Shown piece by piece: positions 15,184 through 35,784 of a stretch of 42,371 nucleotides of DNA. A program made the position numbers and the translations under genes. Within the stretch, counting starts at the first letter, position 1, and each line of letters begins with the position of its first letter. The notes below the pieces were generated by a model. That model was not told the origin of the DNA. It searched no databases and was given only the letters and a program-made list of their open reading frames with translations. The DNA lies in NCBI GenBank assembly GCA_022826305.1, contig JAJDVC010000250.1:1-42371 (forward strand), given 5' to 3'. The DNA is from Gammaproteobacteria bacterium (GTDB taxonomy: Bacteria; Pseudomonadota; Gammaproteobacteria; Arenicellales; Poriferihabitantaceae).

Positions 15184-15564
15184 CTACAGCATTTCGTTTT
15201 CTTCCAGCACCCTGCGGGCCACCCTGAAGCATTCGAGTGCCTGCGGCACGCCGCAGTAGATGCCCACGACATGAACGATACCCCGGATCTGCTCCCTGGA
15301 GACACCGTTGCGGATTGCCCCCCGGCAGTGTATTTCCCATTCGTGCATTTTTCCGAGTGCTCCGATCATCGCCAGATTCATCATTGAGAGGGTCTTGGGG
15401 TCGATTGCGTCGTCTCCCCAGCCGAATCCCCAGCACCATGCGGTCATGGCTTCCTGGAAGGGGCGGGTGAAGTCATCCGCGTCGGCCAGATTCTTCTCCA
15501 CGTACTCTGCGCCGAGTGTTGCCTTGCGCTGGGCAAGCCCCTTGTCGAACAGGTCATTGTCCAT
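15184..15564 (-). CDS. Carboxymuconolactone decarboxylase family protein
   Basis: A 126-residue protein of the CMD/AhpD-like all-helical family, close in layout to 4-carboxymuconolactone decarboxylase (PcaC). The family signature is MHEWEIHCRGAIRNGVSREQ, with the conserved glutamate and histidine, followed by GIVHVVGIYCGVPQALE. The cysteines do not form a CxxC pair, so a peroxidase role is unlikely. PcaC acts in the protocatechuate branch of the beta-ketoadipate pathway, but no other pca genes are present, so the substrate is unknown. The gene is convergent with the SDR gene. Confidence 0.83.
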   Translation of the reverse strand: MDNDLFDKGLAQRKATLGAEYVEKNLADADDFTRPFQEAMTAWCWGFGWGDDAIDPKTLSMMNLAMIGALGKMHEWEIHCRGAIRNGVSREQIRGIVHVVGIYCGVPQALECFRVARRVLEENEML

Positions 15565-15884
15565 AGCGTGTCTCCGGTAGAGATGGTCTTGGTAAAATGG
15601 ATCATGGAGTATATAGCCGATCCGGAAATAATCCTATTCAGAGCGTTGTTCATCTGCAATTCCCGCTGGCGGTGGATAATGGCTGTTCGGGGATGTGTTA
15701 GCAGGGTTTTCCCCGCGTACAGGACTGTTCAGGGAACCGGAATCTGACTTGCAGGGTGAACTGCAGTGATCGTTGCTTCCGATTTGGACTATGATATGAT
15801 TTATGGTAGCTGTAGAAAAAGATCGCTGAATTATGCTGTTGACCAATTACCCGGTGGTAGAAATTCCTGATTCGTCCGTTGATC
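15565..15884. other. Non-coding 320 bases before the toxin-antitoxin pair
   Basis: No gene can be supported; the short minus-strand ORFs of the track look like shadows. The only feature I see is a possible promoter near 15773-15800 (separate entry). Base composition drifts to lower GC than the genes to the left, consistent with the edge of an acquired segment. Confidence 0.4.
15773..15800 (+). promoter_or_regulatory. Possible sigma70-type promoter of the toxin-antitoxin pair
   Basis: TTGCTT at 15773-15778 and TATGAT at 15795-15800 are separated by 16 bases. The likely antitoxin start lies about 85 bases downstream. This is a pattern match only. Confidence 0.3.
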
Positions 15885-16145
15885 ATGAGGTCGGTTTCCC
15901 GGGGAACGATGAAAGCCTGTAAAGCAAGGGAGAAATCCGTTGTGGTCCGGCAAGGAAAAAACGCACTGCAACCCCCCGATATACATGGTTTTCCAAAGGA
16001 TTGGCGCGATCGGATCAGGGCGGATCTGTCGGCACAGCTGGAGGCTGGTGGAACCCTTTATGGAGTACGGTCAGACGGGGCCTACATTGCACGCACCCGG
16101 GGTGGAGACAGGGTTCTCAGACCACCTGACAGGAAATCCTCCTGA
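15885..16145 (+). CDS. Small protein upstream of zeta-type toxin, probable antitoxin
   Basis: Up to 86 residues from the ATG at 15885; a second ATG at 15909 (MKACKAREK) is also possible. The conserved-looking part is HGFPKDWRDRIRADLSAQLEAG followed by GTLYGVRSDGAYIART, which resembles small proteins encoded immediately before zeta-toxin-like kinases in many Proteobacteria (recognition from memory). It is 24 bases upstream of the toxin on the same strand, the usual antitoxin-first order. It shows no helix-turn-helix. Assignment as antitoxin rests mainly on position. Confidence 0.6.
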   Translation: MRSVSRGTMKACKAREKSVVVRQGKNALQPPDIHGFPKDWRDRIRADLSAQLEAGGTLYGVRSDGAYIARTRGGDRVLRPPDRKSS

Positions 16146-16169
16146 CCTGCCGGTACCGGACCTGCGACC

Positions 16170-16730
16170 ATGCCTACTCTGCATGTGGTTGCCGGCCCCA
16201 ACGGTTGCGGCAAGTCAACATTGACTCGCATGAAGGGGTTTGATGGGCTGGAACCTATTGACCCTGACAGGATTCTGCGCGGTATGGTGTCCGGCACACC
16301 TCCACAAGCAGCCCGGAAGGCGTTACGCCTGAGATGGGTGGCGCTTGTTGAAAGAAAGTCATGTCTGGTGGAAACCACTCTCGCCGGTTTGGGTATTTTG
16401 AAACATATGAAAGATGCGCGGCGAAAGGGCTACCGGATTATCCTCCACTATATCTCCGTCGATTCCCCGGAACAGGCGCTTGATCGTATCCGCAACCGCG
16501 TCGCACTCGGTGGTCATGGTGTACCAGAGGCCGATGTTCGGCGGCGCTTCACCCGCTCATTGATCAATTTGCATGCAGCGGTCGAACAAGCGGATGAGGT
16601 ACTACTATATGACAACACGGACCCTGACCATCCGCACCGTGAAGTCGCGGTTCGCTGGACAGGGAATTGGTGGGTTGCAGAAGTTATTCCTGGCTGGGCT
16701 GATGCGGTCTTGGTTAATGCGTTTCGATGA
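16170..16730 (+). CDS. Zeta toxin-like P-loop kinase
   Basis: A 186-residue P-loop protein with Walker A VAGPNGCGKSTLTRM near the N-terminus, an acidic-basic PIDPDRILRG segment, SCLVETTLAG and the characteristic NRVALGGHGVPEADVRRRF. Zeta toxins phosphorylate UDP-N-acetylglucosamine and block cell-wall synthesis, but many chromosomal members have untested substrates. Length and motifs are complete, so it may be active. The stop overlaps the ATG of the AT-rich pentapeptide fragment (ATGA), although that downstream DNA is clearly of different composition. Confidence 0.85.
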   Translation: MPTLHVVAGPNGCGKSTLTRMKGFDGLEPIDPDRILRGMVSGTPPQAARKALRLRWVALVERKSCLVETTLAGLGILKHMKDARRKGYRIILHYISVDSPEQALDRIRNRVALGGHGVPEADVRRRFTRSLINLHAAVEQADEVLLYDNTDPDHPHREVAVRWTGNWWVAEVIPGWADAVLVNAFR

Positions 16731-17020
16731 TGTTTATAACGATATCGGATGTTTTCACGAACTCAGACGGATCAGCCACTTCAATGAACGAATGTTTTAA
16801 GTCGAGTGATCGGGTAGTTCTATTGGATCAGGCCATAGTCCAGGACATGGAAGAAGTGCAATTCGTTAATCATCAATTCCAACGTCTAGTGGCCATAAAT
16901 AAACGGTTTGTTAGCTGCAATTTTAGATACTCGGAATTTGATGCTGCATATATCAGGAAGTGCATATTCGATTCATGCGATTTCACGAGGTGTAGATTTA
17001 CTAATTCCAATTTCCGTTGA
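16727..17020 (+). pseudogene. Pentapeptide-repeat protein, 5' fragment
   Basis: A 97-codon frame in strikingly AT-rich DNA. Its C-terminal half has the alternating pattern of pentapeptide repeats, with F/C/N at every fifth position: FVSCNFRYSEFDAAYIRKC, then IFDSCDFTRCRFTNSNFR, after which it stops. Such proteins normally continue for many more repeats. Here the DNA switches directly into a different gene family in another frame at about 17015-17020, so this looks like the left side of a deletion junction. The first ~20 residues may not be original; an ATG at 16787 is an alternative start. Function unknown. Confidence 0.55.
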
Positions 17021-17605
17021 TTCAGACATTGATCTATTAGCTTTAGTTGAAGTTGAAGGATTTGATCAAAATATCGATCCCGATAAATTTTCGATCTATT
17101 CGTACAAACGAATTCAGGAACTATGGACCGCAGGAAATGCATTTGCATGGCACCTATCACTAGAGAGTAAGCTAATTTTACAGAGAGTGGAGAAGACTTT
17201 TTAAAAAGTTTAGGCCGGCCTTCCAGATACGCCAGTGCAGTCAACGATTGTTACAGATTTTTTGAGATTTTCGAGTCAGCTTGCTTGGCCATCAAACATG
17301 GAACGCCAAGTCTAGTATTTGAACTATCGACGGTGTTTTTAGCTATAAGAAACATTGCAACATGCTATTCGTTAGCAAGTATGCGGAAGCCGATATTTGG
17401 AAGGGATTCCGCTCGCATGATCGGTTCAAAAAGTATCACTATATCGGAACACACTTATTCGATATTAATGCGTTCAAGACTGCTTTCAACTCGAGGCTTG
17501 GGTGACGATGTCTCAAATTATGATCTGTGCAACCTGTTGTCAGAACTTGAAGTATGTAGGCAGTGGATGAACAACTTGTGTACGGAGATTAAAAATCATG
17601 GATGA
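17019..17605 (+). pseudogene. Nucleotidyltransferase-like protein, 5'-truncated and frameshifted
   Basis: Reads VDSDIDLLALVEVEGF, like the SDxDL strand of polymerase-beta-type nucleotidyltransferases, then FSIYSYKRIQELW and AFAWHLSLESKLIL. The frame then fails in the AG run at 17182-17187, and the rest of the protein continues two bases out of phase as SGEDFLKSLGRPSRYA to the stop at 17605 (IRNIATCYSLASMR). Removing one AG would restore SKLILQSGEDFL. The start and the GSxxxG strand are missing. The family name is from memory of the motif; substrate unknown. GC is far below that of the flanking genes. Confidence 0.55.
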
Positions 17606-17900
17606 ATTCGTAAATAGAATGAATACACAGAGGCATGTGTTAAATCTTGTAAATGGAAAAATTGACTTATCCGAGAAACTTTTTGGACTTTCATATAGTG
17701 CGATTCAACGATGGGCTTCAGCTAATCAACTGGACCTGTCTTCGGAAATAATATGTTTTCTGAGACAAATTTCATCAGATTTATTTTTCATTGCAACGCG
17801 TAGTCAAGAGCCCGTAAGTGCAGAATATAGATTTCGACGCCAACAGATCATTGGTTCAGTTTCTTCTCTTGAGCGTGCTTTACAAAATGAACCAGATTGA
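17598..17900 (+). CDS. Hypothetical 100-residue protein in AT-rich islet
   Basis: An intact frame overlapping the end of the nucleotidyltransferase-like gene by 8 bases, so it was probably translated with it. I do not recognise the family. It looks soluble and mostly helical (LSSEIICFLRQISSDLFFI), with no signal peptide, no membrane helix and no obvious catalytic motif. Low GC like its neighbour suggests the two arrived together. The pairing of a nucleotidyltransferase-like gene with a small helical partner recalls HEPN/MNT-type modules, but the HEPN RxxxxH motif is not seen. Confidence 0.5.
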   Translation: MDEFVNRMNTQRHVLNLVNGKIDLSEKLFGLSYSAIQRWASANQLDLSSEIICFLRQISSDLFFIATRSQEPVSAEYRFRRQQIIGSVSSLERALQNEPD

Positions 17901-18224
17901 CTCCCATGCCTGTCCCAAGCCACGCTCGAAGCCATCGCCTCTGTTCCGTTTCGGATTTTAATGATCTGCTGTCTTTGGTCTTTATACTAACCTCCAGCTG
18001 AATTCCGCCGTGATGTAGTCGTACTGCTTACTATTCATAAATACTTATCGTTTTAATACGTGACTTATCTGTAACAGGATTCTAGACACTTCCACATGTT
18101 TTCCATATTGGATTTGTGCTGTTAGCCGGGGTCTGGCAAATGACCATTCTCTGTACTCCGGAAATCAGGTCCACAAAATGATCATGTTATCATGCCTTCA
18201 ATCTACGTGATCTATCTCTGATTC
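17901..18224. other. Non-coding 324 bases before the frameshifted AAA ATPase
   Basis: AT-rich and without any credible reading frame. It contains ATGATCATGTTATCATG near 18179, a short dyad-rich patch about 40 bases before the ATPase start, which could be regulatory. Nothing else is identifiable. Confidence 0.35.
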
Positions 18225-19441
18225 ATGGCCGAAATCGACCTGTTAAATCTTTTCCATCCAGGTACAGGAAGTATTCCCCCGCACCTTGCGGGTCGTGATA
18301 CAGAGAAATCGTTTTTTCGAAATCAATTCAGCAACCTGCATTGCGACATTCAGTCGATCAGGACATGATTCTCTACGGGCCGCGCGGCAACGGCAAGACA
18401 TCGATGCTCCGTCATTTCACAATTAACTGTGAATGTGACGGTGTACTGCCTGCCATCATGTGGATGACGCCGAATCGCATGCGTTCCCTGAAAGACATGA
18501 CTACGGCAATTGCCAGTCAGGACAAGAGCCTCCTGCATGAATTTTCTCCTGTTGCCGCGTCGATTGATGTGGGGATCGCCAAGCTTGGTACCGAAGTTGA
18601 AATTGCTGAAAGATCGTCTTTCTTCAAGGACATTCTGGCGGCCACATGTTCCAGGAAGCCTTCTGTCCTGATCGTCGATGAAGCACATGAATTGGAACCG
18701 GGTATCGCCAACGACCTTCTGAATGCAAGCCAGGAACTACGGTCGAGTCCTGATACGCCTTTTTTTCTCGTGCTGGCGGGCACACCTGGCCTTGTAGGCC
18801 TGCTTCAACAGGCGCATTCAAGCTTCTGGGAAAGGAATGCTGTTTTTCAGGTTGGTCGCCTTTCCGCAGAGGATGCCGCGGATGCCTTGACACGGCCATT
18901 GACTTCCGCAGGCATCGCTTTCGACGGCGATATTGCAGCGGCCGTCGTCGATGGGTCTCACTGCTACCCGTATTTTATTCAGATATGGGGGCAGCAGATT
19001 GCCTTCGACTTGCACGATACCGGGGAGCGTTCTGTGTCCAGCAACACCCTTGCACGGATTGAGCATAAAGTCATGGACAGTATCAATGACTTGTACTCTC
19101 TGCGTTACGAAGAGTTATTCAATGCAGGTTTACTTGATACCTCTGAGCATATCGCCCTGTTTTTCGATGATTCCGGCGCGGAGGATATTACGCTTTCTGA
19201 TATCACATCTGTTGTAAGACATTCACACGGCCATCAGGGGGGCGATACGGCAGATACTTCCATCAAGAATACTATAGACAAGCTTTCCTCCACTGGCTTT
19301 ATCTGGCGGGTTCGCCCAAAAGGTTCCAAGTTCGCCTATTATGAGCCAGGCATTCCCAGCCTGATGAATTATGTTCTGGATAACATGCATCACAACAGGG
19401 AATTGTCACGCATCCCTCAAGGCCACAAGATAAAACCGTAA
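18225..19441 (+). pseudogene. AAA ATPase, frameshifted near its N-terminus
   Basis: The track shows only a TTG-started ORF from 18341, but an ATG at 18225 opens MAEIDLLNLFHPGTGSIPP, then HLAGRDTEKSFF, the usual N-terminus of these ATPases, and then dies at a stop. The main frame has Walker A MILYGPRGNGKT, Walker B SVLIVDEAHELE, FFLVLAGTPGLVGLL (sensor) and a C-terminal winged-helix-like part ending in YEPGIPSLMNYVL. Adding one T to the TTTTTT run at 18312-18317 joins the two frames. A C-terminal fragment of a relative lies at 35.4-35.8 kb. Role unknown; a sequencing error in the T run is possible. Confidence 0.72.
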
Positions 19442-19677
19442 CCCGTTCATCATATGTGACGGTTGTCATGGCGGCTCGCCTGTCGTACTCGATGCGGGTC
19501 CGCCCGTGCACGGTTCTGACGAAAGCCCGCATTCGGGTTTGCGTGCAGTCTTGCCAACCGTTGCCGCAACCAGTCCAGCAAGTTCCCGCCGGTCGGAAAG
19601 TTCACCGCCTTTCCTGCACCGGGCTGTCTGGCGTTATCTGCCTGAAGTCCGGTTTCCTTATGGTCCCGTTGGTCTGT

Positions 19678-22134
19678 TCAGGGATTCTTGCCAGCCAGAT
19701 TCGTTCGGGGCAGCCGGTTATCCGGATCCCGGACCGCGCCTTCCACGACCACAGCCCGCCTGGGATGACCGAGCACCAGCACGGTGACTTCCGTCCCCTG
19801 CCTGGCGATAGCCGGAGGCAGGTAGCAGAATGCCAGGTAGTGCCCGATGGCGTATCCGAATCCGCCGGAAGATACGTGTCCGGCGGGCTTCCCCTGATAC
19901 AGGACGGTTTCCGATCCAAGCGGGTCCGCCGCCGGTTCTCCGGGACCGGGTTCATCCAGTTGCAGGCAGGCAAGTTTCCAGTGTTTCGCCGGGCGGGTGG
20001 AGATTTCAGCTCCCTGGAATCCGCCTTTCCGGGAGAAACGCATGACGTCGGCCTCGGCCAGGGTCACTTCATTGGTGATCTCGTGTCCGGAACGATAGGC
20101 CTTTTCCATTCGCATGGCGTTAAGTGCTGCAGCTCCCACATGCACCGGCCGTGTCCTGCCCGGCACCGACATCAGTGACCGGTACACTGCCTCCATCCCT
20201 GCCATCGGCACATGCAGTTCCCAGCCGAGCTCGCCGGTATAGGTCACGCGAAGCGCCCGGACATTGCGCACCGCCCCGACGGCAATGTTCTGCACCGAAA
20301 GCCAGGGGAAGCTGGTGTTATCGAGGCCCGTGCCGGTACAGGATGCCAGGATTTCGCGGGATGCGGGGCCGGCCAGCATGATGACCCCGTATTCCTGCGA
20401 GACGTTGGCAATGGTCACCTTCTCGTACTCCCGTATCTGCCCGGTCAGCCAGTCCAGCAACGACGCTTCCCTCGCCGCCGCATAGACCATGTAGTAACCG
20501 CCGTTGTCCAGTCTGGCGAGGGTCGCCTCACCCTCGATCCGCCCGCACTCCATGACCAGGTATGTCAGGCTGATGCCGTCCGGTTTCCGCGGCAGGCGGT
20601 TGGACGATACGCGCTCAAGGAACGGCCCGGCATCCGGGCCGGTGATTTCAAGCTTTGCGAAGGCACTGAGATCGGCTATCCCGGCATGGGAGCGCAAACC
20701 GCCGACTTCCGAACCGACAATCGCATGAAGCGGTGACCGGACAAAGCTTTCAGCATGTTCGCGCGGGGTATTTCCGGTCGCGTACCAGAAGGGGCGTTCC
20801 CAGCCGAAAATGTCCTGATAGACCGCGCCCTCGGCTTTCAGGATGTCGTAAAGCGGGGAGCATCTGGAATGGGAGGGACGGCATGCCGGGCGATCCTTGG
20901 CGGGGTACGGAATCTCGTGCCTGAGCAGGTAGTCCTCCCGCGCCTTCGCGAGCCGGTAGTTCCTGTCGATCCGGGCGCCGAAACGCCTGGGATCGAAACT
21001 GCTCATGGAAATGTCGGCGGCCCCGTGGGTCATCCACTGGGCCAGGTACCGTCCCGCACCCGGCCCCCAGGCGATGCCGACCTGGGAACCGCAGCACAGC
21101 CAGAAATTCTCGATGCCGGACGGTCCGAGCAGCATGTTGCCATCCGGCGGATGAGTGATGGCTCCGTGGACGATGCGCCGGATGCCGAGCGAAGAAAGGA
21201 CCGGCATGCGCTCCATGGCATTCTCCAGCCAGGGCATGATGCGTTCCAGTTCCGGCTCGAACAGGGTGTTCTCCGCCTCCCAGGGAGTCCCGTCGTCCCA
21301 GACCGTCCGTTCATTGGCCTTTTCATAGATCCCGATCAGGCCGGATTTCTGCTCCATGCGGATATAGCCTGAAACCTGCCGGTCATCGCGTACAACCGGC
21401 AGTTCATTCTCCAGTTCCTGGAATTCCGGCACGCTGTCCGTCACGACGTAATGGTGCAGCATGTTGGCGATCGGCAGGTCGAGTCCGAGCCATTGACCGA
21501 TCTGCCTGGCGTAGGCGCCTCCGGCGTTGACCACCCGTTCCGCTCCGATGTCTCCCTGTTCGGTATGGATCGTGAATGCGCCATCTGCGGCGAGCGTGAT
21601 GCCGGTTACCCGGTTCTGCCGGATCACCATTCCGCCCATCTGTCTCGCACCCCTTGCCATGGCAAGGGTGACTCCGGCAGGGTCCACATGGCCGTCATGA
21701 GGAGTGTGAAGGGCAGCCTTGATGCCCTCGGTATTGTAGAAGGGATGGAGTTTCCGGATCCGCTCCGGATCGACGATTTCCATTTCGTGGCCCAGGCCGC
21801 ATCCGATGGAGCAGGTGTATTTCAGCCAGTCCACCTCGGCGTCCTCGTATGCGACCCTCAGGCTCCCGCAGCCGTGCCAGGAGCAGGACTGACCGGTCTC
21901 TTCTTCCAGCCGGGGGTAGAGCCCGGTACCGTACGAGGCCATCCTGGCAAGGCCGTAATGGCTGACCGAGTGCGTTATCTGTCCTGCGGCATGCCAGGTG
22001 GAACCGGAGGTCAGTTCCCCCTTTTCCAGCAACAGGATGTCCGCATCGCCTTCCTTGCACAGGTGATAGGCGAGGGAACAGCCCATGACCCCTCCGCCAA
22101 TGATGACCGTTCTTGCCTGGGTGGGTAGTGTCAT
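19678..22134 (-). CDS. FAD-dependent oxidoreductase fused to GcvT-like domain (dimethylglycine/sarcosine dehydrogenase family)
   Basis: 818 residues from the ATG at 22134; the track's 905-residue form adds unrelated sequence. The N-terminal DAO fold begins TVIIGGGVMGCSLAYHL. ELTSGSTWHAAG carries the histidine (about His48) that binds FAD covalently in dimethylglycine dehydrogenase. The middle and C-terminal parts are the aminomethyltransferase-like domains (SHAGIADLSAFAKLEITG, TYTGELGWELHVP, GHEITNEVTLAEAD) that pass the oxidised methyl group to tetrahydrofolate. It probably demethylates an N-methyl amine, but the substrate cannot be read from sequence. It is divergent from the RpiR regulator, with a dyad between them. 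Confidence 0.88.
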   Translation of the reverse strand: MTLPTQARTVIIGGGVMGCSLAYHLCKEGDADILLLEKGELTSGSTWHAAGQITHSVSHYGLARMASYGTGLYPRLEEETGQSCSWHGCGSLRVAYEDAEVDWLKYTCSIGCGLGHEMEIVDPERIRKLHPFYNTEGIKAALHTPHDGHVDPAGVTLAMARGARQMGGMVIRQNRVTGITLAADGAFTIHTEQGDIGAERVVNAGGAYARQIGQWLGLDLPIANMLHHYVVTDSVPEFQELENELPVVRDDRQVSGYIRMEQKSGLIGIYEKANERTVWDDGTPWEAENTLFEPELERIMPWLENAMERMPVLSSLGIRRIVHGAITHPPDGNMLLGPSGIENFWLCCGSQVGIAWGPGAGRYLAQWMTHGAADISMSSFDPRRFGARIDRNYRLAKAREDYLLRHEIPYPAKDRPACRPSHSRCSPLYDILKAEGAVYQDIFGWERPFWYATGNTPREHAESFVRSPLHAIVGSEVGGLRSHAGIADLSAFAKLEITGPDAGPFLERVSSNRLPRKPDGISLTYLVMECGRIEGEATLARLDNGGYYMVYAAAREASLLDWLTGQIREYEKVTIANVSQEYGVIMLAGPASREILASCTGTGLDNTSFPWLSVQNIAVGAVRNVRALRVTYTGELGWELHVPMAGMEAVYRSLMSVPGRTRPVHVGAAALNAMRMEKAYRSGHEITNEVTLAEADVMRFSRKGGFQGAEISTRPAKHWKLACLQLDEPGPGEPAADPLGSETVLYQGKPAGHVSSGGFGYAIGHYLAFCYLPPAIARQGTEVTVLVLGHPRRAVVVEGAVRDPDNRLPRTNLAGKNP

Positions 22135-22170
22135 GATTCGGGTGGGTTGAGTGCCTGTTCCGGGCGATGA

Positions 22171-22186
22171 TGATACACTTGTATCA
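22171..22186. promoter_or_regulatory. 16-bp dyad between flavoprotein and RpiR genes, candidate RpiR operator
   Basis: TGATACA-CT-TGTATCA is a perfect 7-bp inverted repeat with a 2-base centre in the 73-base gap between two divergent starts (22134 and 22208). A close relative stands before the Rieske gene at 24577. Position next to a regulator gene and symmetry support an operator; binding is not shown. Confidence 0.65.
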
Positions 22187-22207
22187 AAATACCATTCAAG
22201 TGTGCAT

Positions 22208-23098
22208 ATGTCACAACAGGGGTTGCCCCCCGCTACCCAGGAAGCAGTGGTTGACGCCTTGATCGGGATCCATGACCGGTTGCCGACCCAGCTCCGGATT
22301 GCGGCACGGTATGTAATCGACCATCCCGTCGAGGTTGGCGTACAGACCATGCGGACGCTCGCCGCCAGGGCGGGAATACACCCGAACAGCTTCATTCGTC
22401 TGGCCCGGCAGCTCGGTTTCGATGGTTTCGAGTCGATGCGGGAGCGGTTCAGGGACTTTGTGCGAAGCGGCGCAGGCAGTAGCGAAAGCAGGGCGCTGTG
22501 GCTGCAGCAGATGGCCGGTCAGGGCGGCATGTCCAGCGTGGTTGCACGGATGGCGACATCCACGATGGCGAATCTGGAGCAGATGGTGCAGTCGCAGGAC
22601 ATCGAGCGGCTGGAGAATGCCGTGTCGAGAATGCTCGGCAGCCGCCGTGTCCTTGTCCTCGGAGTGGGGGCGGGTTATGCGCCGGCCTACAATTTCTGGT
22701 ATGTCGCCAGGATGATATGTGACCATTTTTTCCTGGTTCCGCATCATGGCAGTCTCCCCATGGACGACATTGTCACCGCCAGCGCATCCGACACGCTTTT
22801 CTGCATGACATTCCAGCCCTATCGCAGGGATATTCTCCAGGCCATGCAGTATGCGCGCCAGCGCGGGACCTACGTGATCGGCCTGTCCGACAGCCCCGCG
22901 GCCCGGGTATGCCGGGAAGCCGACCTGGGATTGCATGTGCCAACCCATACGCCCCAGTTCTTCCACAGCAACACGGCCGTGTTTTCGCTGCTTGAAACGC
23001 TCTGTGCACTGTTGGCGGCCAGTGGCGGAGATGATGCGGTCAGTCGTGTAGAGCGGTTCAGCAGGTTGCGCTGGGAATCCGGAACGTACGAGGAATGA
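22208..23098 (+). CDS. MurR/RpiR family transcriptional regulator
   Basis: 296 residues from the ATG at 22208; the longer GTG start at 22151 in the track would place the dyad inside the gene. The N-terminal HTH_6 domain has YVIDHPVEVGVQTMRTLAAR and NSFIRLARQLGFDGFESMR. The C-terminal SIS domain has VLVLGVGAGYAPAYNF, SASDTLFCMTFQPYRRD and YVIGLSDSPAARVCREAD. The family senses phosphosugars or related small molecules. The divergent flavoprotein gene and the repeated dyad suggest control of methyl-amine breakdown; several RpiR proteins do regulate non-sugar catabolism. Effector unknown. Confidence 0.9.
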   Translation: MSQQGLPPATQEAVVDALIGIHDRLPTQLRIAARYVIDHPVEVGVQTMRTLAARAGIHPNSFIRLARQLGFDGFESMRERFRDFVRSGAGSSESRALWLQQMAGQGGMSSVVARMATSTMANLEQMVQSQDIERLENAVSRMLGSRRVLVLGVGAGYAPAYNFWYVARMICDHFFLVPHHGSLPMDDIVTASASDTLFCMTFQPYRRDILQAMQYARQRGTYVIGLSDSPAARVCREADLGLHVPTHTPQFFHSNTAVFSLLETLCALLAASGGDDAVSRVERFSRLRWESGTYEE

Positions 23099-23158
23099 CT
23101 GGCGGTATTCCGGGGTTGGCCGTGGCCGGTTGCAAGGGAGACTCGGTCCCGGCGCTGA

Positions 23159-23176
23159 CCGGGAGCACGCTCCCGG
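23159..23176. terminator. Hairpin between convergent rpiR-type and AI-2E genes
   Basis: CCGGGAGC-AC-GCTCCCGG is a perfect 8-bp stem with a tiny loop, in the 154-base gap between two converging genes. There is no T run, so classical intrinsic termination is doubtful. A stem with the same GGGAGC/GCTCCC core lies in another convergent gap at 30692-30710. Confidence 0.45.
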
Positions 23177-23252
23177 GTTCTGCCCCCGACTGCCGACAGC
23201 ACCATGCATCATCTCACCGACACCGGAGACAGTGAGCCGGATAACGCCCGGA

Positions 23253-24374
23253 TTACACTATCTGTCGGATGTATTTCTGCCTGACGAGCCGGTACACCAC
23301 CACGACGAACGCCGTAAGCGGTATGGCCAGGATAATACCCAGTACGCCATCCAGGGCGGCGCTCCAGAAAAATATCCCGACGATGATTGCCATGGGGGGC
23401 AACCCGATGGCGTCGCCCAGGATTCGGGGCGTCAGCAGGTAGCTCTCCATCAGTTGAACCAGAATGAAGATCACGAGCACCAGGGCAAGCAGGGAACCAC
23501 CTCCGCCATCCTGGAACCAGGCTATGGGCAGGCATACGGCCAGACCGATGATGCTGCCGAGATAGGGAATGATGTTCAGGAGTCCCAGCATCAGCCCGAG
23601 TACGATTCCATACTTGAGACCGATCAGGCTGAAACCGATCGCGAACATGCCTCCCTGGATCAGGGCGATGATGACCTGGCTGCGAAAGAAAATGATCACC
23701 AGACTGAAGAACTCCTGTATCAGGTAGATCACGTCGGCTGCGGTGCCGGTTTTCAGGAACGGCAGGTGATCGGGTTCCAGGGAACCCGGTCGCAGCTTCG
23801 GCATTACCAGGAAGTAGGCCAGATAGACGGGCAGTATGGCCCATCCGAGCAGGGCAACCATGCTGGAAGTGATGCTGGCCCCGGCCCGGGTGAGGTAGTT
23901 CATCAGGTGCTGGGCGAAGGCGATCACGGGTTCCCAGCCCAGGTTTTCCTCGATGGACCTGCCTATCCCATCGGTCTGGAAGTACTCCAGCAATCCTGAA
24001 TGGTGCTCCCAGACCCAGTTGTACATCGCCTCCCATAGTGCCGAAATCTGTTCGAGCAGAGCCATCAGCTGGGTCATGATCAGTGAACCGAAAACCAGAA
24101 TGATCAGGACAATGGGTGCCAGTATCGACAGATAGACCAGTAGAAGGGCCGCGACGGCAGGAAGCCTGCGTCTCAGAAAGGCGTACCACGGATCAAGCAT
24201 CGTGGCCAGTACTCCCGCGACAGCCAGCGGCAGAAAGACATGCCAGAAAGCCTGAAAGAACCGGGACAGGTAGACCAGGGCGACTATCGTGGCGAACATC
24301 ACCACCGCCCCCGCCAGGATGGTCATGGCGGTGCCCAGCACCTTCTTCTGGTAGTCGGACAGGTTTACATCCAT
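23253..24374 (-). CDS. AI-2E family transporter (PerM-like membrane protein)
   Basis: A 373-residue inner-membrane protein with about eight hydrophobic segments, including TILAGAVVMFATIVALVYL near the start, LLLVYLSILAPIVLIILVF, and the conserved C-terminal block IPYLGSIIGLAVCLPIAWF followed by YLLTPRILGDAIGLPP, typical of the AI-2E/PerM family. Members export autoinducer-2, act as sodium-proton antiporters or have no assigned substrate. It is not in an obvious operon. It lies between the regulator and the Rieske gene, transcribed towards the regulator. Confidence 0.9.
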   Translation of the reverse strand: MDVNLSDYQKKVLGTAMTILAGAVVMFATIVALVYLSRFFQAFWHVFLPLAVAGVLATMLDPWYAFLRRRLPAVAALLLVYLSILAPIVLIILVFGSLIMTQLMALLEQISALWEAMYNWVWEHHSGLLEYFQTDGIGRSIEENLGWEPVIAFAQHLMNYLTRAGASITSSMVALLGWAILPVYLAYFLVMPKLRPGSLEPDHLPFLKTGTAADVIYLIQEFFSLVIIFFRSQVIIALIQGGMFAIGFSLIGLKYGIVLGLMLGLLNIIPYLGSIIGLAVCLPIAWFQDGGGGSLLALVLVIFILVQLMESYLLTPRILGDAIGLPPMAIIVGIFFWSAALDGVLGIILAIPLTAFVVVVYRLVRQKYIRQIV

Positions 24375-24576
24375 CGGCTGGTCATTCCCGGTGGGTCGGG
24401 CGTTACGGAAATTCGGCTGAACGGGTTTTCCATACCCGGAGTATAGTCCATCGGATTCGGGACTGCCGGGCGTTCGGTCAGCGCTGTTTCGTCCGATTTG
24501 TCAGGATGAAGTGGGACAGGGTCGACACGATTTCGTCCTGATCTGGAAAGCACATCTGTTTCATTATTCGGAAATA

Positions 24577-24592
24577 TGGTACAAATGTACAA
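24577..24592. promoter_or_regulatory. Second copy of the RpiR-type dyad, upstream of the Rieske oxygenase gene
   Basis: TGGTACA-AA-TGTACAA has the same length, centre and half-site as the dyad at 22171 (consensus TGRTACA-NN-TGTA), with two mismatches in the outer right arm. It ends 44 bases before the Rieske start codon, a sensible place for an operator or activator site. Confidence 0.55.
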
Positions 24593-24636: not shown

Positions 24637-25740
24637 ATGGGAAACCGGAATGCGCCTTCAATGACCGGCATGGACCGGGCCGGGCCTGTCCGGGGTTTGC
24701 CGGCACGCTACTTCACCGATCCGGGGATTCACGAACAGATAAAGCAGAAGGTCTATTTCACCACCTGGCAGTTCGCCTGCCACGCAAGCCAGGTTTCGCG
24801 GCCCGGGGATTTCCTTGCTTTCCCGCTCTTCGAGCAGGATATCCTGGTCGTCCGTTCGCGGGACGGACTACGGGCCATGTTCAATGTCTGCCAGCACAGG
24901 GGACACAAGCTGGTGGAGGGGCAGGGAAGCCGATCCCGGATTACCTGCCCCTACCATGCCTGGACCTATGATCTCGAGGGTCGCCTGGTGGGTGCGCCGA
25001 ACTCGGGATGCGTCGAGGGCTTCGATGCCGGTTGTATCCGGATCCCACAGATCCGGGTCGAGGAATTCCTGGGTTTTGTCTTTGTCAACCTGGATCATGA
25101 GGCGCCCACAATGGAGCAATGCTATCCGGGCGTGGCGGAAGCGGCCCTGGAATTGTGTCCCGACATGGAATGCAGGAAGTTCGCCCATGAGCATGCCGCA
25201 GACGAGGGATGCAACTGGCTGACGGCGGTAGAAAACTACAATGAGTGCTATCACTGCAAGGTGGCCCATGCCGAATTTGCAAAGGGGGTGATCGACCCGG
25301 ACAGTTATCGTATCGCGCCCTTCGGCGGGGGGAAGGTGCTCAGGCATACTTCGCTCGCCACGCAAGGACCGGATGCCTGGTACGATGTCGCCGGATCGGA
25401 TTACGGAAGCTTCTTTCTGTGGCCGGCAACGGCAATCCAGATATACCCCGGCGGCCTGCTGAATACCTACCACTGGCGCCCCCTTGCCGTGGACGATGTC
25501 CGGGTTCACCGGGGCTGGTACTCTGCAGACGGACAGGTGGATGATACTCTTCGCAGGGTCATTGACCTGGACCGTGACACGACGTTTTCCGAGGATCTCG
25601 AACTGGTGAAGAACGTCCAGCGGGGGCTGGGCTCCCTGGGCTACCGTCCGGGCCCCCTGATACTCGATCCCGACGGCGGCATCGACAATGAACTGTCGAT
25701 TGCGGTGCTGCATCAGTGGCTGCGCCAGGCGGTCGACTGA
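24637..25740 (+). CDS. Rieske non-heme iron oxygenase, betaine/carnitine demethylase type
   Basis: 367 residues from the ATG at 24637, preceded at 8 bases by a strong GAGGAGG ribosome site. The Rieske cluster ligands are in NVCQHRGHK (Cys85, His87) and CPYHAW (Cys104, His107). The iron site is ENYNECYHCKVAH with His206 and His211. The residue three before the first histidine is Glu203, as in carnitine oxygenase CntA, where ring dioxygenases have aspartate. The third ligand lies in FSEDLELVKNVQRGLGSLG, a phrase common in glycine betaine and stachydrine demethylases. The reductase partner is not in the window. The aminotransferase gene follows. Confidence 0.9.
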   Translation: MGNRNAPSMTGMDRAGPVRGLPARYFTDPGIHEQIKQKVYFTTWQFACHASQVSRPGDFLAFPLFEQDILVVRSRDGLRAMFNVCQHRGHKLVEGQGSRSRITCPYHAWTYDLEGRLVGAPNSGCVEGFDAGCIRIPQIRVEEFLGFVFVNLDHEAPTMEQCYPGVAEAALELCPDMECRKFAHEHAADEGCNWLTAVENYNECYHCKVAHAEFAKGVIDPDSYRIAPFGGGKVLRHTSLATQGPDAWYDVAGSDYGSFFLWPATAIQIYPGGLLNTYHWRPLAVDDVRVHRGWYSADGQVDDTLRRVIDLDRDTTFSEDLELVKNVQRGLGSLGYRPGPLILDPDGGIDNELSIAVLHQWLRQAVD

Positions 25741-25794: not shown

Positions 25795-27090
25795 GTGAAA
25801 ACCGAATCGGAACGGATGTTTGAAACGGCCGGACGAACCCTGCCCGGTGCGGGCCTGGGCGGATATTCCCTGCCTGAATCGGTCCGCCTGATCTTCAGTC
25901 ATGGCAAGGGATCCCGCATGTGGGATGTGGACGGGAACGAGTACATCGATTTCGTCGGGGGCGCCGGGGCGCTGATACTGGGGCACTGCCACCCGGCCGT
26001 GGTCGATGCCGCAAACGAGCAGACGACCCGGGGAGGGCACATGTTCGGGTCCCTCAACGACAGGGCCGTGGAGCTTGCCGACAGACTGGCAAGGGATATA
26101 CCCTGCGCGGAAAAGATCGCCTATGCCACGACCGGGTCCGAAGCCACGGCCTATGCCATGCGCCTTGCGCGCGCTTTCACGGGACGCGACCGGATACTCA
26201 AGTTCGAGGGGGCCTATCATGGCAATCACGACTATGCGATCGTCAGCACCTTCCCTCGTGAAACCGGTCACTATCCGCAGGGCGTCGCGGATTCCGGCGG
26301 CCAGCCGGACGCAACGGTTTCAACCATGCTGGTCTGTCCGTACAACGATCTGGAAACCCTGAAGCGGATAGTGGCCGAGCATGTCCGCGAGATCGCCGGA
26401 ATCATCGTCGAACCGGTACAGCGGATCATTCCCGCCAGGCCCGGATTTCTTCATGGTGTGCAGGAAATCTGCCGGGCCAACGATATCGTGTTCATTCTGG
26501 ATGAAGTGGTGACCGGTTTCCGCCTGAGCTACGGAGGCGGGCAGGAGTGGTTCGGGGTGAGCCCCGATCTGGCAGCCTATGGCAAGGTGATCGGTGCTGG
26601 CGGTCCGCTGTCCTGTGTTGCCGGACGGGCCGAGATCATTGACCTCGGGGATCCCCATCGAAAGGGGCAGGAGCGTTATACCTACCTGAACGGCACGCTT
26701 CATGGCAATCCGGTTGCCGCCGCGGCGACCATGGCCATGCTTGATGAGTTGTCGAGGCCGGGGGTTCATGTCCGGATGAACGATTACACCCGGGAACTCG
26801 GTGCGGCCTGCCAGAAAATCCTGGACAGATACGATATCCCCGCGATAGTCCAGAGCACCGGTTCCCTGTGGCAGATCCTCTTCATGGACAGGACGCCGCT
26901 TGACATGACCGATATCCTCAACTCCGACCAGGCGGCCATGCGCCGACTGGACATGGAACTGATGCGTAACGGACAGTATGTCCTGCCCGGTGTGCGCAGA
27001 TTCATCTCGACGGTCCATACGGATTCGGATCTGGAGGATACGGTCCGGGGACTGGATGACGCCTGCCGTGCGTTTAACAGGACAGGGTAG
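25795..27090 (+). CDS. Class III PLP aminotransferase (glutamate-1-semialdehyde aminomutase-like)
   Basis: 431 residues from a GTG at 25795; an ATG at 25816 is the alternative start. A fold-type I PLP enzyme: TTGSEATAYAMRLARAFTG binds the cofactor phosphate, AYHGNHDYA stacks on the ring, ILDEVVTGFR holds the ring-nitrogen aspartate (about Asp236), and AAYGKVIGAG holds the Schiff-base lysine (about Lys264). It resembles HemL but sits beside a Rieske oxygenase, so it is more likely a catabolic or modifying aminotransferase than the tetrapyrrole enzyme. It starts 54 bases after the Rieske stop, probably in the same operon. Confidence 0.85.
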   Translation: MKTESERMFETAGRTLPGAGLGGYSLPESVRLIFSHGKGSRMWDVDGNEYIDFVGGAGALILGHCHPAVVDAANEQTTRGGHMFGSLNDRAVELADRLARDIPCAEKIAYATTGSEATAYAMRLARAFTGRDRILKFEGAYHGNHDYAIVSTFPRETGHYPQGVADSGGQPDATVSTMLVCPYNDLETLKRIVAEHVREIAGIIVEPVQRIIPARPGFLHGVQEICRANDIVFILDEVVTGFRLSYGGGQEWFGVSPDLAAYGKVIGAGGPLSCVAGRAEIIDLGDPHRKGQERYTYLNGTLHGNPVAAAATMAMLDELSRPGVHVRMNDYTRELGAACQKILDRYDIPAIVQSTGSLWQILFMDRTPLDMTDILNSDQAAMRRLDMELMRNGQYVLPGVRRFISTVHTDSDLEDTVRGLDDACRAFNRTG

Positions 27091-31165: not shown

Positions 31166-32272
31166 TCATTCGGTTGCAGGGGCCACGGATTCCACCAGCA
31201 GTTCCTGGAAGCGTCGCACGCTGTCCTCCCAGTATGGTGAAAGCAGACCGCCTTCCGCCACGCTCCGGGACAGCCTGCCGAGCTGCAGGCGTTCGCACAT
31301 CTCATGATCCTCCTTGTGTACTTCATACCAGAGTTTGCGGGTCTGTTCAATTTCCTGCTCGGAAAGAACCGCTTCCCGGTGGACATAGATCACGCGTTTC
31401 TGATGCGTTCGTGCGACGCCGTCCGGCGTGTTCAGGTGAACGCCAACCTGGTTGGGTGCGTAGGTTCCGAGGACAAAGTTCGGGAACAGGGTCAGGAATC
31501 TGGAGGATACCGCCAGGGTATTCTTTCCGGTTCCGGCCGCGCCGTCGTCGATATCACACTTGCTGCCCAGGCAGTGCTCGTCGAGAACCGTCGAATGGCT
31601 GACCAGCGGCTGGTCCGTGGTCGTCCTGTGCACGAACTGCACGTGGTACGGCTCGATGAAATTCTCCATCAGCGCCTTCCAGTTTGTCCGGACGGTCCCG
31701 AACTCCAGGGTGGCAACCGGTTTCAGGTCGTCCAGGGGCAATGCGCCAAGTTGCCGCCTGAGCGGCGCCACATGCTCGTCCAGCGGCGGCGCCTGGCCGT
31801 CCAGATTGACGAATACCCAGTCGTGCCAGGTCTCGCAGCGAATGGGAATCAGGCCCAGTTCGTCGACGGGAAATGATTCGGGTGGAGTCTGGTTCCGGCC
31901 GCAGAAGTAGGGCGCGGCCTTGAGTGTGCCGTCCAGCGCGTATGCCCATGAATGATAGGGGCAGCGTATCAGCCTGCCATGGTTGGCGGGCGTTTCCACC
32001 AGCTTCAGGCCACGGTGGCGGCAGGCGTTGTGATAGGCGCGCAGGTTTCCGGATTCGTCCCGCGCCAGCAGGATGGGCTGTCCGGCTATGGTGACGGGCC
32101 TGAGATCCCCCGGGCGTTCCTGCTCATGGGAGAATCCGGCAAAGACCCAGTTGCTCCGGAACACCGTGCGGTTCTCGAGCGCGTGGAAATCGGGATCGGT
32201 ATAGACCGCAGCGGGCAGTCCGGAACGAAAAGCAGGACCAGTGTCCAGAAATGTCTCGAAGCTGATCTGCAT
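31166..32272 (-). CDS. Rieske non-heme iron oxygenase, second paralogue
   Basis: 368 residues from the ATG at 32272 (MQISFETFLDTG); the track's extra 36 residues are not supported. Rieske ligands are in HNACRHRGLK (Cys84, His86) and RCPYHSWAY (Cys104, His107). The mononuclear iron site is ENFIEPYHVQFVH with His210 and His215 and again glutamate (Glu207) at the bridging position. It differs clearly from the first Rieske protein and is not a recent duplicate. The N-terminal CRHRG type suggests dealkylation or hydroxylation of a quaternary amine or aromatic acid. No ferredoxin or reductase gene is nearby. Confidence 0.88.
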   Translation of the reverse strand: MQISFETFLDTGPAFRSGLPAAVYTDPDFHALENRTVFRSNWVFAGFSHEQERPGDLRPVTIAGQPILLARDESGNLRAYHNACRHRGLKLVETPANHGRLIRCPYHSWAYALDGTLKAAPYFCGRNQTPPESFPVDELGLIPIRCETWHDWVFVNLDGQAPPLDEHVAPLRRQLGALPLDDLKPVATLEFGTVRTNWKALMENFIEPYHVQFVHRTTTDQPLVSHSTVLDEHCLGSKCDIDDGAAGTGKNTLAVSSRFLTLFPNFVLGTYAPNQVGVHLNTPDGVARTHQKRVIYVHREAVLSEQEIEQTRKLWYEVHKEDHEMCERLQLGRLSRSVAEGGLLSPYWEDSVRRFQELLVESVAPATE

Positions 32273-32290
32273 GAATGCTCCCACAGATGT

Positions 32291-32336
32291 CCTACAGGCC
32301 CCGGATTTGCCGCTGTCCGCGAAAATCGTCTGTAGG
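32291..32336. repeat. Spaced inverted repeat upstream of second Rieske gene
   Basis: CCTACAG at 32291-32297 and CTGTAGG at 32330-32336 are inverted copies (wider match TG-CCTACAG) with 32 bases between them, centred about 40 bases before the Rieske start at 32272. It could be a two-site operator; 7-bp arms this far apart can also arise by chance. Confidence 0.3.
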
Positions 32337-32439
32337 CACGGGATTCTATCACAGGGCTGCTTCGGGAAATCAAGATGCAACGGGGAATCCGCACTGCCGA
32401 TCCTGCCGGAACCTGTCGGCGGGAGGCTGTGGGGGACAT

Positions 32440-34164: not shown

Positions 34165-35307
34165 TCATCGCGTGCTTGCCATTCCTGGTACTCCACTGCC
34201 TGCCGGCATTTCCGGTATCTCCATGAAGATACTCATCAACGGCCGGTTGACGTAGTAGTTGTAGCGCCCGATCTTGTGTTTCTCGATGAATCCCCTTTCT
34301 GTCAACAGCTCCAGATACTTGACTGCGGTCAGCCTCGAGACGCCCAGGTCGGTCCGTAGAGATTCGATCTTGGTGTAGGGGTGCCGGAATAAGTTGTTGA
34401 GCAGATCCTGGCTGTAGATCTTTGGCAGTTCTGCGCGGATGCGGTGCTTGTACTCCAGCATGATTTCCTTGATCTTCCGGATGATCCAGATGGTCTGGCG
34501 AGAGGTGAATTCGACGCCTGCCAGCATGTAGAGGATCCAGGGATCCCAGTCACCGGTATCCCGCGTGTTCTGCAACAGGCGGTAGTAGCCCGCTTTGTTG
34601 CGGATGATATATCGGCTGAGATAGAGTATCGGGATATCGAGTAGCCCTTTTGCCACCAGGTAGAGGATATTGATGATGCGCCCGGTACGGCCGTTGCCAT
34701 CATAAAATGGGTGGATGCTCTCGAACTGGTAGTGGATCACCGCCATCTTGATCAGGGGATCGACATCGCAAAGCGTGTCATCATTAATGAATTTTTCCAG
34801 GTTGTTCATCAGGCGCACAATTTCCCTGTAATCTTGCGGTGGTGTATAAACAGCCTCGCCGGTATGATCGTTCTTGAGCACTGTACCCGGAAGTTTGCGG
34901 ATGCCGGCCCTGTTCTGTTCCAGTGTCTGGTGGATTCCGACGATGCGGTTGGCAGTGAGCAATCGGTCGTGTCTCACCTGCTCGAAGGTGACCTTCAGGG
35001 CGGTGGCGTAACGACTGACCTCCTTGGTGGCTGGGTTCTTTATATAATCCGCGAACAGATCGAACTGGTAGAGATCGTCATGGGTGGTGATGATGTTCTC
35101 GATCTCGGAACTGTCCTTGGCCTCCTGCAGGGTAAGGGTGTTGATCAGGATGTGCTCGTTGGGGATGGTGGTTGCCATGCCCTTGAGTTCGGCCAGATAG
35201 CGGTGGGCCTGGGCAAGGCCTTTCAACACCAAGCGGGATTCCAGTCCTGCAGTGGGTGGCAACAGTGAGATGGTGTTCTGAGTCGTCAAGGCGCCCATGT
35301 CAGCCAT
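34165..35307 (-). CDS. Fic family protein (class II AMPylator with winged-helix tail)
   Basis: 380 residues if started at 35307 (MADMGALTTQNT); starts at 35298 or 35373 are possible, and no clear ribosome site settles it. The track's 532-residue frame is too long because it runs antisense to a neighbouring fragment. The catalytic motif HPFYDGNGRTGR is complete (His about 199). The inhibitory helix motif DSSEIENI precedes it (about 66-72), which marks class II Fic proteins. A C-terminal winged helix (YTKIESLRTDLGVSRLTAVKYL) follows. Fic proteins transfer AMP to hydroxyl groups; the target is unknown. It stands alone. Confidence 0.9.
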   Translation of the reverse strand: MADMGALTTQNTISLLPPTAGLESRLVLKGLAQAHRYLAELKGMATTIPNEHILINTLTLQEAKDSSEIENIITTHDDLYQFDLFADYIKNPATKEVSRYATALKVTFEQVRHDRLLTANRIVGIHQTLEQNRAGIRKLPGTVLKNDHTGEAVYTPPQDYREIVRLMNNLEKFINDDTLCDVDPLIKMAVIHYQFESIHPFYDGNGRTGRIINILYLVAKGLLDIPILYLSRYIIRNKAGYYRLLQNTRDTGDWDPWILYMLAGVEFTSRQTIWIIRKIKEIMLEYKHRIRAELPKIYSQDLLNNLFRHPYTKIESLRTDLGVSRLTAVKYLELLTERGFIEKHKIGRYNYYVNRPLMSIFMEIPEMPAGSGVPGMASTR

Positions 35308-35397
35308 ACGTGTATAGAAAACAGTTGCTTTGTATACATAATCTTTTCTCGTGTCAATAAAATCTTGTTTCATATACATGAGTGGAAGTCGGGAAAC

Positions 35398-35784
35398 ATG
35401 TATAGGGTGCGGCTGGATGAGCTTGACAAAATCGGCTTGTTCGAGACTGCCGTACAGGTTGCTAGGTATTTTCTGGAGAACGGCAAGGACCGGGTATCGT
35501 ACATCGACATGAAGACCATCATTCGTCAGGCCCACATCGGTCTCGGCATGGATGCCGGGGACTCTTCTGTCGCGGAAACCAGAATCGGACTTGTCTCCAC
35601 CGGTTTCATATGGAAAACGAATCCTGCAGGTTCCATGTCCGCCTGGTACGAACCGGGCATTCCCAGCCTGATGAATCATGTTGTCAACGAATCCCGGAAG
35701 GTGGATGAGGGGTTCACGAAAAAACTGTTGTCCAGACCACAGGCCCCTCCAAGAGGCGCCCATGAACAGGGTTTTCCTTGCTGA
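35398..35784 (+). pseudogene. C-terminal fragment of an AAA ATPase related to the one at 18.2-19.4 kb
   Basis: About 128 residues from the ATG at 35398. MYRVRLDELDKIGLFETA aligns with LYSLRYEELFNAGLLDTS of the 18.2-kb ATPase, STGFIW is shared, and YEPGIPSLMN is identical in both. The P-loop half is absent, and the reading frame starts just beside the divergent Fic gene. It is therefore the leftover of a second family member, or a stand-alone winged-helix protein, which seems less likely. The tail after NESRKVDEGF is unrelated and basic. No ribosome site is evident. Confidence 0.65.

Follow-up and report, generated by a model that had tools for sequence, protein, structure and literature searches.

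Paired palindromic sites point to a two-operon RpiR-family regulon for putative methylated-amine breakdown in gammaproteobacteria

Introduction

Do two similar palindromes, one beside the gene for an RpiR-family regulator and the other before a Rieske oxygenase operon, place both transcription units under that one regulator? The question arises from a gammaproteobacterial contig, of which the whole stretch analysed here (42,371 nucleotides) is called the window. Most of what is known about RpiR regulators concerns sugar-phosphate metabolism, and the effector bound at the SIS domain of RpiR/MurR proteins is usually a sugar phosphate. A sequence-only reading of the window had proposed that a shared 16-bp dyad puts both operons under one regulator and that their enzymes serve one pathway. 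Here we add to that reading a weak dyad at a fixed distance of 29 bp from each strong one, a displaced carboxymuconolactone-decarboxylase-like (CMD) gene and a repressor-like promoter geometry. We conclude with good confidence that the dyads are operators of an RpiR-family repressor (22208-23098), probably tetrameric, controlling genes for putative oxidative N-demethylation and transamination.

Results

Two strong dyads flank the target operons

The flavoprotein gene (start 22134, minus strand) and rpiR (start 22208, plus strand) are divergent, and the 73-bp gap between them contains the strong, or primary, dyad TGATACACTTGTATCA (22171-22186). The other strong dyad, TGGTACAAATGTACAA (24577-24592), lies before the Rieske operon and ends exactly 44 bases upstream of the Rieske ATG at 24637. 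Both positions agree with the sequence-only reading. The first site is a perfect match to TGRTACA-NN-TGTAYCA, and the second is off that motif by one base.

The regulator, encoded on the plus strand at 22208-23098, carries an N-terminal HTH and a C-terminal SIS domain according to domain profiles and predicted fold. Its SIS domain (PF01380) scores 42.8 bits against a cut-off of 25, while HTH_6 is detected under its curated cut-off (22.0 versus 28.3 bits). The predicted structure (mean pLDDT 86) matches RccR best, matches Vibrio vulnificus NanR, Streptococcus pneumoniae NanR and MurR as well, and aligns with RccR and NanR over the full length with a loose domain arrangement (TM about 0.5-0.6). 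The SIS domain and the predicted fold thus support membership of the RpiR family, for which the HTH_6 sequence match alone falls short. Palindromic candidate operators in the regulator's own promoter region and at its predicted targets, a feature of the RpiR/MurR family, are also present here.

Position and conservation, not motif counts, carry the evidence

A scan of the whole 3.03-Mb genome at no more than one mismatch returned the two strong dyads only, and the reversed-pattern control returned one match, with about one match per genome expected by chance. Across 24 genomes of the family, 33 real matches stand against 33 reversed-pattern matches at the same threshold. Because the real counts equal the control, genome-wide counts prove nothing and were dropped as evidence, leaving position and conservation to carry it. 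The sequence-only reading had named frequent random matches as an observation that would speak against a regulon; the counts do equal those of the control, but the dyads are kept in place in relatives. Within the window, four matches at no more than three mismatches are ordinary (2.35 expected), whereas the two best copies are unusual. None of 1,000 dinucleotide shuffles of each of the two window gaps reached so good a dyad. Among 34 distinct genomes (five in the second genome set apparently duplicate first-set genomes, having identical coordinates), all 11 perfect motif matches lie at this locus. Two-mismatch matches in the window's own genome numbered 20, versus 33 for the reversed control, and further regulon members are therefore unsupported; inspection of the contexts of C5:2264 and C45:2973 gave no lead either.

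Searching for RpiR relatives in the family genomes and in public gammaproteobacterial genomes, we found that the near clade (RpiR about 56-62% identical) carries the dyad in the flavoprotein/rpiR gap with zero to two mismatches, and that the flavoprotein-promoter dyad is conserved in 18 near-clade loci, the window included. Wherever the Rieske and aminotransferase genes form a separate unit (the window, L017, L018, L031, L019, L059 and L125), a second dyad of their own precedes the Rieske gene, whereas in loci where the Rieske gene directly follows rpiR (L020-L030) a single dyad remains and the second one is gone. L019 has its flavoprotein gene moved some 3 kb away from rpiR, and the flavoprotein and Rieske genes there each keep their own dyad. 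One genome, G014, has rpiR without the flavoprotein gene on a short contig (L016/L060), and the 588 bp upstream hold no dyad; despite this, its Rieske promoter (L059) has one.

We compared these loci with four control genomes (G023, G007, G005 and G006) that have no RpiR match at the cut-off used or, in G006, a remote one (29%). All four encode Rieske orthologues that are 60-72% identical, and none of their Rieske promoters has a dyad, the best candidates showing five to six mismatches, apart from a two-mismatch match over the Rieske start in L121, and pair-test p values of 0.035-0.94. In gaps with RpiR the pair test gives p <0.001, except in the distant L127 (0.057), which has weak dyads only. 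Overall, the dyad is missing upstream of the flavoprotein, aminotransferase and Rieske orthologues of genomes without this RpiR. The retention of the motif before both transcription units in relatives is what the sequence-only reading had put forward as a check, and its proposal of one regulator for both operons gains support from the restriction of the second dyad to loci with a free-standing Rieske operon and from the dyad-less target orthologues in genomes without this RpiR.

A weak dyad recurs at a fixed spacing

Each strong dyad in the window has a weak, or secondary, companion. On the minus strand, TGTGACATATGCACAC (22200-22215) lies 29 bp start-to-start from its primary dyad and ranks first among the 75 positions of the 90-bp flank (p about 0.004); AAGCACATCTGTTTCA (24548-24563) lies 29 bp upstream of its primary dyad and likewise outscores the rest of its 75 positions (p about 0.002). 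Both are poor matches to the motif, with four to five mismatches. In an offset scan, promoters were aligned on the strong dyad and the flavoprotein and Rieske sets were scored independently; -29 was the top offset in both, with mean scores of -1.7 versus -34.1 ± 7.2 and -2.4 versus -33.4 ± 6.0, respectively. Column information in the flavoprotein set amounts to 1.76 bits in the primary dyad and 1.44 bits in the secondary dyad, against 0.37 bits far upstream. In 24 of 25 promoters the weak dyad ranks first to third among 75 positions, although, the promoters being kin, these 24 cases are not independent events; it is missing from the Rieske promoter of L019. In a distant clade (RpiR 33-40% identical, mostly from other families), dyads are again paired, here at a distance of 30 bp, and most of the gaps contain TTGAC.

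In the window and in most of the L020-L030 relatives, the rpiR start codon (ATG/GTG/TTG TCA CAA) falls inside the weak dyad, an overlap that could explain part of the weak-dyad conservation at the flavoprotein/rpiR gap. It is not the whole reason, since the weak dyad persists in four loci whose rpiR start is at least about 110 bp away from the strong dyad (L017, L018, L031 and L032), and is also kept in L019 and at Rieske promoters, where it has no coding role. With the start codon inside the weak dyad, RpiR may in addition occupy the region where its own translation begins.

Promoter geometry suggests repression

On the minus strand, a -35-like box, TTGAAT (22194-22199; consensus TTGATT in relatives), lies between the two dyads of the flavoprotein promoter, followed after an 18-bp spacer by a putative -10 box, TATCAT (22170-22175), that overlaps the primary dyad. 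Read by eye, the boxes of the relatives are TTGATT-18-TATCAT for the flavoprotein gene and TTGATT-18-TATATT for the Rieske gene; those before the Rieske gene of the window itself are poor. The strong dyad thus lies between -35 and -10, partly over -10, and the weak dyad adjoins -35. A strong dyad over the -35/-10 space and a pair that brackets -35 make up a repressor geometry.

For E. coli MurR, one report (PMC12713135) describes a proposed tetramer that bridges two sites over -35 and -10, 47 bp in total. The present arrangement is comparable, with dyads 29-30 bp apart that span 45-46 bp and a -35-like box, recognised from the DNA alone, in the gap between them. By analogy, RpiR would bind two dyads per target promoter, the strong one over the -35/-10 space and the weak one 29 bp upstream; the 13 bp that separate them include the -35-like box. 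A tetramer made of two dimers would probably span both dyads, about 45 bp, and block RNA polymerase, and it would come off the DNA once a pathway metabolite bound to the SIS domain. Such a regulon would be small, comprising the flavoprotein gene together with its usual partner, the CMD gene, then rpiR by way of the shared gap, and the Rieske-aminotransferase operon.

Four other explanations of the dyads were weighed. Coincidence, in which two look-alike palindromes merely lie near each other, can appeal to the roughly one match per genome that chance allows and to totals that equal the control, but it fails to account for dyads kept in place in many diverged genomes and never matched by shuffles, and we regard its probability as negligible. 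A reading of the flavoprotein/rpiR symmetry as back-to-back extended -10 elements (TGATACACT and TGATACAAG) instead of a regulator site draws on the overlap of the primary dyad with a -10-like box on each strand. We rejected it, and judge it very improbable, because the dyads of L019 are symmetric at one-way promoters, whose upstream neighbours are co-directional so that no divergent promoter is needed; moreover, orthologous promoters without RpiR have no dyads and the second dyad recurs at a fixed spacing.

If the dyads are true operators of one regulator, this could be another protein than the present RpiR, given that the link between the two is drawn from sequence, that the HTH_6 match falls below the Pfam threshold and that L019 and L016 have no dyad directly 5' of rpiR. 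Against this, the dyads track the presence of rpiR, are absent from RpiR-less targets and mostly occur in rpiR's own promoter gap, the recognition-helix region of RpiR is strongly conserved, and the fold is predicted to be that of an RpiR protein; a different regulator therefore seems improbable. An activator acting at the same sites would have precedents in S. pneumoniae NanR and Lactococcus lactis GlaR, both activators of this family (PMC12713135, PMC6528599). The strong dyad over the -35/-10 space and the pair bracketing -35, however, occupy positions that normally block polymerase, and the extra half-site of NanR is reported beside an alpha-CTD element, which makes activation by RpiR unlikely. 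Repression by RpiR bound at paired dyads is accordingly the reading that we carry forward.

The predicted target genes encode putative demethylation and transamination enzymes

The flavoprotein (19678-22134, minus strand) is a fusion of an FAD oxidoreductase with GcvT (DAO + FAO_M + GCV_T + GCV_T_C), and its domain architecture and closest solved structure, dimethylglycine dehydrogenase (DMGDH; E 1e-152), suggest a DMGDH-like enzyme. The Rieske non-haem iron oxygenase (24637-25740, plus strand) is of the CntA/GbcA type with Glu at the bridging position (NYNECYHC); CntA is its best PDB match (E 4e-57) and the bridging Glu is present, but the match is distant, and the protein stays under the GbcA NCBIfam equivalog cut-off (139.5 versus 670 bits). 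The second gene of this operon, conserved after the Rieske gene, encodes a glutamate-1-semialdehyde aminomutase-type class III aminotransferase (25795-27090, plus strand) that stays under the HemL NCBIfam equivalog cut-off (336.5 versus 527 bits). An AI-2E-family transporter (23253-24374, minus strand), found between the two target operons in the nearest relatives only, is probably a bystander. The regulon itself contains no Rieske reductase and no transporter.

The CMD-like gene (15184-15564, minus strand) normally lies directly 3' of the flavoprotein gene, an order kept almost without exception by near relatives with long enough contigs, and CMD-like proteins at the flavoprotein operon or cluster of relatives are 74-88% identical (76-88% in the near clade). 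In the window the two genes are separated by a 4.1-kb stretch (15565-19677) in which GC drops to 39-53% for much of the length, versus about 60%, and which carries genes for a zeta-toxin-like protein (16170-16730) and an AAA ATPase (18341-19441). The flanking genes are adjacent in relatives, and the stretch is probably an insertion that severs the CMD gene from its operon promoter. Elsewhere in the window are a second Rieske oxygenase (31166-32380), which is 31% identical to the first and has counterparts nearby in two relatives (L018 and L031; identity about 61-62%), and a SoFic-type Fic-domain protein (34165-35763; PADLOC SoFic model, E 9e-118).

Operon orders vary among relatives: CMD-aminotransferase-flavoprotein in L127, rpiR-Rieske-CMD in L128, and all enzymes without RpiR in L124. 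That the enzymes stay clustered under several orders, even without RpiR, supports the proposal of the sequence-only reading that the enzymes of both operons serve one pathway. A formate-tetrahydrofolate ligase near the cluster in L123 and L124 fits one-carbon disposal, and mandelate-racemase-type genes recur nearby. Genomes lacking this RpiR also encode a homocysteine S-methyltransferase/methyltransferase fusion near the aminotransferase gene (L124:2248-4014 and L122:10765-12555). From the gene families, the pathway is likely oxidative N-demethylation and transamination of a betaine or N-methylated amine, in which the Rieske enzyme would attack a quaternary compound, the DMGDH-like GcvT-flavoprotein would pass the methyl carbon to tetrahydrofolate and the aminotransferase would take off the amine.

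In L028 (822-2210), the usual post-Rieske aminotransferase is absent, and the flavoprotein gene is directly followed by a different class III aminotransferase that most resembles taurine:2-oxoglutarate aminotransferase. This swap is a hint at taurine, weak given the distribution of Xsc, which occurs in most regulon genomes but is common in RpiR-less relatives too, while at least two regulon-bearing genomes yielded no Xsc; its presence does not discriminate for a taurine betaine route. A homarine pathway was also considered and set aside.

Discussion

The likeness to E. coli MurR extends to family, fold and two adjacent sites over -35/-10 (47 bp there, 45-46 bp here), yet the gap is 17 bp there and 13-14 bp here, and MurR, crystallised with MurNAc-6-phosphate, responds to an amino-sugar phosphate, in contrast to the amine pathway suggested by the present genes. 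S. pneumoniae NanR (PMC12713135) also combines a strong site with a degenerate half-site at a distance of 23 bp, which the tetramer is proposed to hold, but it is an activator of the sialic acid pathway with only a half-site, downstream of the strong one. Pseudomonas RccR, the best fold match, and HexR likewise use palindromes (TGTAGT/ACTACA and TTGT-N7-8-ACAA, respectively), but with other half-sites and spacing, and they sense KDPG and act in primary carbon metabolism (PMC5489143). On the enzyme side, the pairing of a CntA/GbcA-type Rieske oxygenase with a DMGDH-like enzyme recalls the demethylation of glycine betaine (GbcA and dimethylglycine dehydrogenase) and of carnitine (CntA), from which the present cluster differs in missing the GbcA cut-off, in its added class III aminotransferase and CMD-like protein, and in its RpiR regulator. 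In the open-access literature searched we found no paper combining RpiR with dimethylglycine and sarcosine, and a single one combining RpiR, glycine betaine and Rieske.

The two-operon regulon very likely adds a fairly ordinary member to a known regulator family. More tentatively, and with less than even confidence, we suggest an RpiR subfamily that senses a non-sugar ligand (a betaine, an N-methylated amine or a breakdown product) and, through paired operators, represses an undescribed demethylation-transamination pathway, for example for taurine betaine or beta-alanine betaine. The previously unassigned cluster of Rieske oxygenase, DMGDH-like flavoprotein, aminotransferase and CMD-like protein becomes one testable regulon with a defined operator in several gammaproteobacterial families, and the constant distance between strong and weak dyads offers a clear test for the MurR-type tetramer model. 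If true, the tie between RpiR and methylated-amine breakdown would widen the range of ligands of the SIS domain.
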